Source: Orrella marina (lineage in GTDB: Bacteria; Pseudomonadota; Gammaproteobacteria; Burkholderiales; Burkholderiaceae_B). From it: DNA of 64,000 bases. The stretch spans positions 3,224,001 to 3,288,000 of the forward strand of contig NZ_CP028901.1 in the NCBI RefSeq assembly GCF_003058465.1. The letters run 5' to 3'. The translations under genes and the position numbers were made by a program. Position 1 is the first letter of the stretch; each line of letters starts with the position of its first letter. The notes below the pieces were generated by a model. That model ran no database searches. It saw only the letters and a program-made list of their open reading frames with translations, and was not told the origin of the DNA. Shown piece after piece: positions 39,963 through 61,587 of the stretch.

Positions 39963-41675
39963 TCAGGCGGTCGTGCTGGTTGTGCTGGCCTCCACAGCCT
40001 CCATGCCGTTTTCCTGAATGTAACGGTTCACTGCGCTGAGAACGGCTTTGAACGAAGCAGTCACGATATCGACATCTACGCCGACACCGAATCCTGGCAG
40101 CGAGTCACCGATCTTGACTTCTACATAGCAGGCCGCCCGCGTTTCTGTCCCAGTCCCGATGGCATGCTCGTGGTAGTCCACAATCCGTACGGGCAGGCTC
40201 AGGCTGTTGACGAAGGCCGAAATTGCCCCGTCGCCTTGTCCGCTCAGGGATTGACGCTGGCCGTTGACATCGAATTCTGCATCAATCGAAAAGTGTTGTC
40301 CTTGCGCAGCAGATGGATCACCTGTGATGCGATGTTTGATCAGCTTCCAGGGGCTGCTCTTGCCCAGATACTCCTTGAAGAACAGGCTGTATACATCGTC
40401 GGATGTGACTTCACGGCCTGTCTCGTCGGTTACGCGCTGGATGGCCCGACTGAACTCGATCTGCAGGCGGCGAGGCAACACCAGCCCGTGCTCTTGCTCG
40501 AGCAGATAGGACACACCACCCTTGCCTGACTGGCTGTTTACGCGAATGACTGCGTCGTACGTACGGCCAAGGTCAGCCGGATCGATCGGCAGATAGGGAA
40601 CCTCCCATACTGCGTCTGGCTTTTGCTGGGCCAGTCCTTTCTTGATCGCATCCTGGTGTGACCCGGAAAATGCTGTAAACACCAAGTCCCCGACATAGGG
40701 GTGACGCGGATGAACAGGCAACTGGTTACAGTACTCGACGCAACGGCGCACTTCGTCAATGTCCGAGAAGTCGAGCCCGGGATGGATTCCCTGTGTGTAG
40801 AGGTTAAGCGCTAACGTGACGAGATCCACGTTGCCGGTACGCTCACCGTTCCCGAAAAGGCATCCCTCGACCCTGTCCGCACCAGCCATCATGGCCAGTT
40901 CGGCTGCAGCCACGGCTGTGCCGCGATCATTGTGAGGGTGGACGCTGATGACGATGCTGTCACGCTTGTTCAGGCGTGTGTGCATGAATTCCACCTGGTC
41001 CGCGTACATGTTCGGCGTTGTCGCCTCTACAGTGGCTGGCAGGTTGAACACAATCTTCTTTTGCGGGGTGGGTTTCCACACCTCGGTTACCGCGTTGCAG
41101 ACGTCCAGGGCAAACTCAGGCTCGGTGGTGCTGAACACTTCAGGCGAATACTCGTAGTACCAGTCGGTCTCTGGATGCTTGGCCATGTTTTCCATCACCC
41201 AGCGAGTGCCGTCAACGGCGACTTGTTTGACCTCGTCGCGGGACATGTTGAACACAATTTTGCGAAACGCCGGGGCGCAGGCGTTGTAGAGGTGGATCAT
41301 GGCCTTCTTGGCGCCAGCCGCGGCTTCGACCGTGCGTTCGATCAGCTCTGGACGTGACTGGGTAAGGGCAATGATGGTGACGTCTTCAGGGATCCTGTTT
41401 TCGTCAACGAGCTTGCGCACGAAGTCGAAGTCTGTCTGCGAAGCCGACGGAAAGCCGACCTCGATCTCCTTGAGGCCAGTCTTGATCAGCATCTCGAAAA
41501 AGCGCAGCTTGCGCTCGACGCTCATGGGCTCGATCAGGGACTGGTTGCCATCACGCAAGTCGGTGCTCATCCAGACTGGAGGATGAGTGATGCGCTTGCT
41601 TGGCCAGGTTCGCTCAGAAAAGTCTTTTGTGAACGGCTTGAAGGGAATGTATTTCTTGGATGGGTCGGTCAACAT
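39963..41675 (-). CDS. leuA: 2-isopropylmalate synthase, long form
   Basis: This enzyme of about 570 residues catalyses the first committed step of leucine synthesis from 2-oxoisovalerate and acetyl-CoA. It shows the catalytic [11 protein letters not shown] motif near residue 40, the [12 protein letters not shown] metal-site motif near residue 250 and a C-terminal regulatory (leucine-binding) domain. It belongs to the longer subgroup found in Burkholderiales. The start at 41675 has AGAGAGG upstream. The frame continues further but that part is leader sequence. A leucine-rich leader peptide lies 145 bp upstream, suggesting leucine-dependent attenuation. Confidence 0.95.
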
Positions 41676-41688
41676 GGAATCCTCTCTC

Positions 41689-41705
41689 GCCCCGATCGGC
41701 GGGGC
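41689..41705 (-). promoter_or_regulatory. GC-rich hairpin next to the leuA ribosome binding site
   Basis: GCCCCG and CGGGGC form a 6 bp stem around a 5-base loop, ending only a few bases upstream of the leuA AGAGAGG site on the minus strand. There is no U-tract. It could be the last element of a leader-controlled switch affecting ribosome access. Confidence 0.35.
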
Positions 41706-41788
41706 CAACTGGCAACGATTTAAATGTGAATGGTTTTGAACTGGAGTGTGCCCGCGAGCGCACGAATCGTGCATCACCGCACAGGTGT

Positions 41789-41825
41789 GGCACTAGGCTG
41801 CCGGACTTGCCACGGGGCACTAGGC
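41789..41825 (-). repeat. Two direct copies of GGCACTAGGC at the leuA leader stop codon
   Basis: Identical 10 bp copies at 41789-41798 and 41816-41825 (plus-strand sequence) flank the segment just after the leader peptide; the second contains the leader's stop codon. Each copy can pair with nearby GC-rich segments, so the two may compete in alternative RNA structures. Confidence 0.5.
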
Positions 41826-41885
41826 CCGGCAACCGATCGCTAGTAGTAGGGATAGGGAGTTGGTGGCGAGGGTTGCCGAAGACAT
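41820..41885 (-). CDS. Candidate leucine leader peptide of leuA
   Basis: An ATG frame of 21 codons upstream of leuA contains the run NSLSLLLAIGC with four CUA leucine codons (three consecutive) plus one CUC. CUA is rare in this GC-rich sequence. The layout (short peptide rich in the pathway's amino acid, encoded by rare codons, 145 bp before the biosynthetic gene, followed by repeats and hairpins) is that of an amino-acid attenuation leader. The ribosome binding site is weak (GGGAC). Expression is not proven, but the codon pattern is unlikely by chance. Confidence 0.6.
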   Translation of the reverse strand: MSSATLATNSLSLLLAIGCRA

Positions 41886-42023
41886 GGCGTCCCGTGCGCT
41901 GGTCGAAGCACACTGACGAGCAAAAGCCGACAGCGTTGCTGCCTGTGCAATCATCTCGCGAGGACCCATTGAGGTATTCATGTCTATAGCAAAACATATT
42001 CTGAGGAAAAATGCAAGTTTGAT

Positions 42024-61254: not shown

Positions 61255-61587
61255 GCTATGGTGCGCCCAGCATCGGCGCATACCTTCGGGGGAAGGTCCC
61301 GCTGCAAGCTGGTCACAACGAGTGAAGTGAAGCGCAACTGCATGAGGGCGACCAGATGCGGAGAACACGCGTGTCGAATAAGTCGCGAGCCGATGGACAA
61401 GAATCGGATACAAGGCAATGCAAGGCAGCCTGGATGCGACTGTTATGTGATGAAGGTATGTGTTACTTGCCCGGGGAGATCTTGCCTTATCAGCGAGAAA
61501 CCGGTTTCACCGAACCAGACACCGACACGCCAAGTGTCAAAGTCGGGAGTAAAACACAAGTTCTGATGACCTCAACCATTTCAATCG

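Follow-up and report, generated by a model that had tools for sequence, protein, structure and literature searches.

A conserved leucine-codon leader with interlocked helices upstream of leuA in Orrella marina: a probable ribosome-controlled switch

A short leucine-rich reading frame and a stretch of structured RNA precede leuA in Orrella marina, and the question raised by this locus is whether the two form a leader that responds to leucine and, if so, by which output the gene is controlled. The window, meaning the whole 64,000-nucleotide stretch of DNA that was analysed, contains the locus on its minus strand, and all coordinates below are positions in it. The leucine frame and the RNA structure before leuA are real and larger than first described. 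The preferred reading, held at a probability of roughly 0.7 on comparative sequence evidence, is a ribosome-controlled leucine leader of leuA that most likely acts by ending transcription early, with no intrinsic terminator involved. In the literature searched, with subscription papers mostly outside it, no account was found of a leader of this kind that puts leuA under leucine control, be it in Burkholderiales or in Proteobacteria at large.

The gene and the frame in front of it are laid out as follows:

39963..41675, minus strand: leuA, 2-isopropylmalate synthase, 570 aa, type TIGR00970/NF002991
41820..41981, minus strand: probable leader frame, 53 codons plus stop UAG, with no evident Shine-Dalgarno sequence, containing the 21-codon frame
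41885-41820, minus strand: 21-codon frame MSSATLATNSLSLLLAIGCRA with its stop, 144 nt upstream of the leuA ATG (41675)
41841..41855, minus strand: Leu codons CUA UCC CUA CUA CUA, ending 6 nt before helix P1
41820..41822, minus strand: leader stop codon UAG, inside the loop of P1, at the same place in 108 of 148 loci

The 21-codon frame on which the original prediction was built is present, but it is probably only the 3' end of a longer leader. The frame stays open upstream to an ATG at 41981, and since the leaders of same-genus relatives start at the corresponding, promoter-proximal place, the leader of the window is probably 53 codons long rather than 21. The four CUA codons assigned to LSLLL all lie there, whereas the CUC codon that had been placed with them lies earlier, in ATLA.

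The leucine codons before the structure are regularly placed. Counts are given for 148 loci, left after duplicates were removed from 157; these 157 were kept out of 162 loci with model matches, the other five (L044, L069, L073, L075 and L134) having no leuA start near enough to use. The loci are related to one another. On average 4.29 of the ten codons ahead of P1 are Leu codons, compared with 0.47 in a control stretch in the same frame, and Leu stands at codons -3, -5 and -7 before P1 in 142, 138 and 110 of the 148 loci. Codon choice is biased as well: CUA makes up 374 of the 635 Leu codons (59%) in these ten codons versus 12 of 1872 (0.6%) in leuA. Four of the 148 loci have no Leu codon in this stretch, a point against the preferred reading.

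Upstream of the leader ATG, two promoter-like elements can be read from the sequence and from aligned relatives:

42011..42016, minus strand: -35-like hexamer TTGCAT (in relatives often TTGCCA)
41988..41996, minus strand: extended -10-like element TG-T-TTTGCT, 17 nt from the -35-like hexamer and 6 nt before the leader ATG

Alignment of same-genus loci places the leader start directly after the promoter-like element. A strict pattern (TTG.., 16-18 nt with TG, T....T, 3-9 nt, in-frame ATG) is matched by 32 of the 148 loci versus 4 of 2960 shuffles, and in all 32 the spacing is 17 nt and the frame reaches P1 without a stop. The window falls outside these 32 because its -35 hexamer is weaker (3/6 match to TTGACA), and a generic promoter scan of the window found no promoter. 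With the leader ATG only 6 nt after the promoter-like element, translation without a ribosome-binding site is possible, and the leader mRNA is probably leaderless, translated from its first codon.

Two helices follow the Leu codons, the 5' arm of the second lying within the loop of the first:

41824..41834, minus strand: 5' arm of P1, GGUUGCCGGGC (alignment, covariance model)
41809..41813, minus strand: 5' arm of P2, GUGGC, within the P1 loop (alignment, co-variation)
41796..41806, minus strand: 3' arm of P1, GUCCGGCAGCC (alignment, covariance model)
41787..41791, minus strand: 3' arm of P2, GCCAC, 4 nt after P1 (alignment, co-variation)

An alignment of 27 loci defines P1 as GGUUGCCGGGC/GUYCGGCARCC (11 bp) and P2 as GUGGC/GCCAC (5 bp), interlocked with P1. 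Among 43 model-found sequences (set A2), P1 is paired in 99.2% of cells, and P2 in 95.3% at its outer pair and 97.6% at the inner four. In seven of the 16 pairs both partners vary, and not one of 500 shuffles attains the values observed, a result that is not a probability, the 43 sequences being related. Set A2 was fitted to P1, with P2 outside the model structure, and it overlaps with set A1; co-variation is quoted from the model-found set because the structure pattern fixes some P1 and P2 letters. Across the 148 loci, all 11 pairs of P1 are present in 132, while 14 loci have 10 pairs and two have 7. P2, with the best placement allowed within 45 nt, forms all five pairs in 144 and reads exactly GUGGC/GCCAC in 111. 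In the distant loci L171, L213, L214 and L219 the sequence of P1 is largely replaced and its pairing kept.

The spacer between P1 and the 3' arm of P2 is often 3-5 nt in the 148 loci, most commonly 4 nt (40 loci), with 3 nt in 12. By ordinary helix lengths, 3-4 nt can hardly span 11 bp, so the two helices may exclude each other, or P1 may give up some of its pairs when P2 forms as well. A separate variant of the element accompanies a more diverged leuA in L040, L069, L071, L100 and their kin L152; L069, L071 and L100 are Achromobacter records, of which L069 stops short of leuA, and the P1-P2 spacer measures 24 nt in L071 and 23 nt in L152.

Two further features had been described between the leader and the gene:

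41789-41798 and 41816-41825: 10-bp repeat GGCACTAGGC, read from the window sequence
41705-41689, minus strand: GC-rich hairpin GCCCCG-CCGAT-CGGGGC, just upstream of the leuA Shine-Dalgarno sequence

The direct repeat exists in two copies but is not conserved in the alignment of 27 loci. As a functional unit it was discarded, its second copy consisting of the P1 end GCC, a variable spacer (UAGU here) and the GCC of P2. The GC-rich hairpin does adjoin the leuA Shine-Dalgarno sequence, where it had been placed. A hairpin at this position is kept, with sequence changes, in seven of eight same-genus loci tested (L001, L002, L004, L005, L008, L009 and L010); in L027 the best hairpin lies elsewhere.

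The element is common in Burkholderiales and stands before leuA wherever this can be judged among the pattern matches listed. A DNA search with a 361-base query matched 27 of 61 genomes, its own included; apart from its own genome and a stray second match (L028), the matches cover the region of the CUA run and stop. leuA lies just downstream in 27 of the 28 matched loci, the 28th being L028, located elsewhere in genome G036. Of 300 genomes of the order, 21 have a match to the covariance model of P1; a phylum sample of 299 genomes yields four, all of them from the order and the own genome among them, and leuA is downstream in all 16 further model-found loci. A structure-only pattern, from which the Leu codons were left out, matched at least 119 named stretches, with Achromobacter, Bordetella, Cupriavidus, Massilia, Herbaspirillum and Zoogloea among the matches listed. 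Among these listed matches, 115 of 119 stretches have leuA 84-207 nt downstream, and the other four end 53-196 nt past the motif start, too early for leuA to be judged.

A second model (R2) extends this range. In the window's family it matches 133 of 151 genomes, spread over 38 of 42 genera, and in three other families of the order 69 of 116, 27 of 120 and 3 of 60 genomes, these figures being counts of model matches. Across 115 genomes of the class, nine have a model match at E up to 0.1. Five of them, the own genome and four not used for the model, score E <1e-5, and each of these five matches lies directly before a TIGR00970 leuA that was located independently. Weaker class-wide matches (E 5e-4 to 0.09) lie away from leuA in G605 (5e-4), G360, G688 and G652, and G1046 has a weak match (3e-4) with leuA on another contig. 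Judged by these matches, the element reaches families and orders beyond the window's own.

Many leuA genes of this type nevertheless have no such leader. When 32 genomes were looked at again (29 of them without a match), 25 had a TIGR00970-type leuA over the cut-off, three of these from 0.8-0.9-Mb genomes. Two of the 25 loci (L214, L219) are model matches and one (L213) carries an element that the model missed; the remaining loci showed no clear copy by eye, so TIGR00970-type leuA often occurs without the element. A geometry search on element-less leuA loci gave some scores up to 39, with no Leu codons in front. A leuA protein tree (FastTree), for which 91 of the 93 selected rows could be used (there was no usable protein for L060 or L153), places element-bearing leuA in several parts with at least 15 label changes, a distribution that does not separate one old origin with losses from transfers.

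The Leu frame, the CUA bias, the co-variation of P1 and P2 and the position before leuA are kept across genera and families, so the lack of conservation that would have spoken against the original prediction is not what relatives display. Conservation and co-variation together rule out chance or a coding artefact. These same features, which sequence comparison establishes, strongly support the proposal that the leader is leucine-responsive, and leucine-dependent ribosome stalling is well supported as its putative input.

A mechanism can be proposed on this basis. The leader would be transcribed from the promoter just before the AUG and translated from its first codon. When charging of Leu-tRNA is low, the ribosome would stall on the rare CUA codons that end 6 nt before P1; at all CUA codons but the last, the front edge of the stalled ribosome would fall short of P1, and P1, together with P2, would form and leuA would be expressed. 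When leucine is plentiful, the ribosome would enter the 5' arm of P1 and usually reach the stop in the P1 loop, the structure would be kept open and leuA expression would be cut. This direction of the switch is suggested by the ribosome footprint, which leaves P1 free or nearly so at the Leu codons and covers the P1 5' arm at the usual stop. The stop lies at P1+12 in 108 of the 148 loci, at +18 in 14 and at +24 in 2 (124 of 148 together). Its location elsewhere, from +3 to +99, in 24 of 148 loci counts against the proposed mechanism, as does Herbaspirillum, in which a different frame containing Leu codons stops immediately ahead of P1.

The output of the switch would most likely be an early stop of transcription in which no intrinsic terminator takes part. 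A terminator scan of the window found no site behind the leader structure, its single site (41943-41929) lying inside the leader. Composition by position and folding were analysed in 141 of the 148 loci, seven being left out with P2 of fewer than 5 pairs or a spacer longer than 12 nt. The 30 nt after P2 are on average pyrimidine-rich and G-poor, with a C/G ratio of 2.18 compared with 1.20 upstream, which weakly supports Rho as the leading candidate for the output; the window itself has no pyrimidine-rich tract there, with 8 C and 10 G in 30 nt.

The original prediction leaned towards translational attenuation, in which the leader structure hides or exposes the ribosome-binding site of leuA, and this leaning did not find support. 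Predicted accessibility of the leuA start is 0.482 with P1 formed and 0.474 with P1 masked, a shift larger than 0.2 between the states being seen in only four of the 141 loci (three drop, one rises). Sequestration of the Shine-Dalgarno sequence by the leader structure was rejected on this prediction, and the unchanged accessibility counts in favour of a non-translational output. Pairing between Leu codons and the Shine-Dalgarno sequence reaches p<0.05 in 12% of the 148 loci, slightly over the 5% expected, and gives p 0.99 in the window. What speaks for a translational output is partly distance, since in many records of Massilia and Cupriavidus only 84-100 nt separate the motif start from the leuA ATG, and partly the leader frame itself. 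In nine of the 148 loci (L041, L054, L092, L106, L113, L133, L146, L153 and L154) the Leu frame meets no stop within P1 or P2 and stays open as far as the leuA start; eight of these frames stop at leuA's own first letters, AUGUUGA or AUGUUAA. Since the stop sits in the gene's own letters there, coupling is possible and the arrangement may be incidental; as they stand, these frames would suit coupling better than termination, a point against the preferred reading. Support also comes from Actinobacteria, where the description of the LEU element includes a stem between Leu codons and the Shine-Dalgarno sequence (PMC1262725). Among the actinobacterial loci collected here, L199 has a 10-bp match of this kind (p 0.005), and L198 and L200 give p 0.055 and 0.08. 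Taken together, translational control appears unlikely.

A classical attenuator, with P1 as antiterminator and the P2 hairpin plus a U-rich tail as intrinsic terminator, is also a quite unlikely account. When the 5' arm of P1 is left out, the P2 hairpin appears in the minimum-energy fold of 128 of the 141 loci (median -7.7 kcal/mol), and the usual spacer of 3-5 nt is short for P1 and P2 together, as mutually exclusive helices would have it. A U-rich tail, counted as five or more U among 8 nt no further than 16 nt behind P2, follows in 54 of 141 loci; of background pieces about 6% have one. The other 87 have no such tail, the window has no terminator-like site there, and P2 is a helix of just 5 pairs with a long loop; P2 was accordingly set aside as a general intrinsic terminator.

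That the structure is the binding site of a regulatory protein, with the Leu codons of minor importance, is improbable: it was proposed by the authors of the LEU element (PMC1262725) and would suit the strongly conserved P1 and P2 sequence of the first 27 loci, but Leu at fixed alternate codons and 59% CUA are hard to explain without translation, and the distant loci have replaced most of the P1 sequence while keeping its pairing.

The ribosome-controlled leader preferred here can be set beside several known systems. The closest is the LEU element, published for Actinobacteria in 2005 and described as lying before leuA with a leader containing a run of Leu codons, interlocked helices and a base stem between Leu codons and the Shine-Dalgarno sequence (PMC1262725). 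Its authors left the mechanism open, and their report, citing its ref. 22, mentions codon changes in an actinobacterial leader that do not fit classical attenuation (PMC1262725), which counts against the preferred reading as well. The leuL1 leader of Streptomyces lividans, MRFGLLLLSCRGEGL, is reported to be leaderless and without an intrinsic terminator (PMC8079986), and a leuA leader of Corynebacterium glutamicum is the subject of another source (PMC4046766).

Actinobacterial and alphaproteobacterial leaders were taken from plasmid-borne leuA records. In those of Nocardia, Microbacterium, Nonomuraea and Tsukamurella, Leu codons come first, the leader stop falls within the loop of P1, and an arm of P2 lies near the P1 3' arm. 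Going by the published description of the LEU element, these four leaders are taken here to belong with it. A geometry search of 19 loci scored above all 60 shuffles in nine, two of these being Cupriavidus loci with the element itself; the score was reached by 1-7 of 60 shuffles in five loci and by 24 in L207, and no such structure was found in L195, L196, L203 and L212. For the six actinobacterial loci, the score was reached by 0 of 60 shuffles in three, by 1 and 2 of 60 in two and by 4 of 60 in L202, with the best shuffles close.

The element described here shares with the LEU element its place before a TIGR00970-type leuA, the upstream run of Leu codons and the two interlocked helices that follow, and it resembles leuL1, as reported (PMC8079986), in its missing intrinsic terminator and, probably, in a leaderless start. 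It differs in four respects: the base stem between Leu codons and the leuA Shine-Dalgarno sequence is absent (p 0.99 in the window), the preferred codon is CUA whereas CUU and CUC prevail there, the leader has about 36-55 codons in place of 13-16, and the sequence has diverged, model R2 finding none of the actinobacterial leaders. Because the base stem is absent, the element is called LEU-like rather than a LEU element. Alphaproteobacterial loci are matched weakly by R2 (L209, E 7e-4; L204, 0.005; L197, 0.035). A single ancient leader class may accompany TIGR00970-type leuA across Actinobacteria as well as alpha-, beta- and gammaproteobacteria. Expression would then be switched by a Leu-rich, leaderless frame together with two interlocked RNA helices, with no intrinsic terminator involved and the ribosome-binding site left exposed; this wider view is tentative and carries less confidence than the local reading. 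With the leader described here, the puzzling LEU element gains a second host group without the proposed stem between Leu codons and the Shine-Dalgarno sequence, and since that stem is missing there, the mechanism becomes testable by the parts that both groups keep.

Likeness to the enteric leader is more general. In enteric leuL, several Leu codons in a row, CUA among them, precede a structured region and the ribosome is the sensor; the window's leader has the same two parts. The differences are that no Rfam family matches the element in the window, Leu_leader (RF00512, the enteric leu operon leader) included, and that no intrinsic terminator follows it; E. coli leuA is of another type. Compared with a classical ribosome-mediated transcription attenuator, a leader rich in codons for the end product is found and an intrinsic terminator is not. 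Proteobacterial attenuators were reportedly surveyed by Vitreschak and others in 2004. In Rho-dependent leader attenuators such as tna and mgtCBR, translation of the leader decides termination, and the proposed leader would share with them this decision and the missing U-tract; it differs in that the case for Rho comes from average base composition, unlike the window's own.

Other leaders were seen upstream of leuA during these comparisons. L195 (Burkholderia arboris), L221, L231 and L233 have a leader of a different kind, rich in Leu and with a GLGL/GRGL-like part; the C- and G-rich stretches behind it could pair, and the P1/P2 element is absent. L196, from a Sphingomonas plasmid, has the leader LLLRSLRLIRP and then a 13-bp hairpin that holds the stop, with no P2 seen. 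Elsewhere in the window, positions 61342-61463 on the plus strand match the group II intron family RF02001 at 36.9 bits, over its gathering score.
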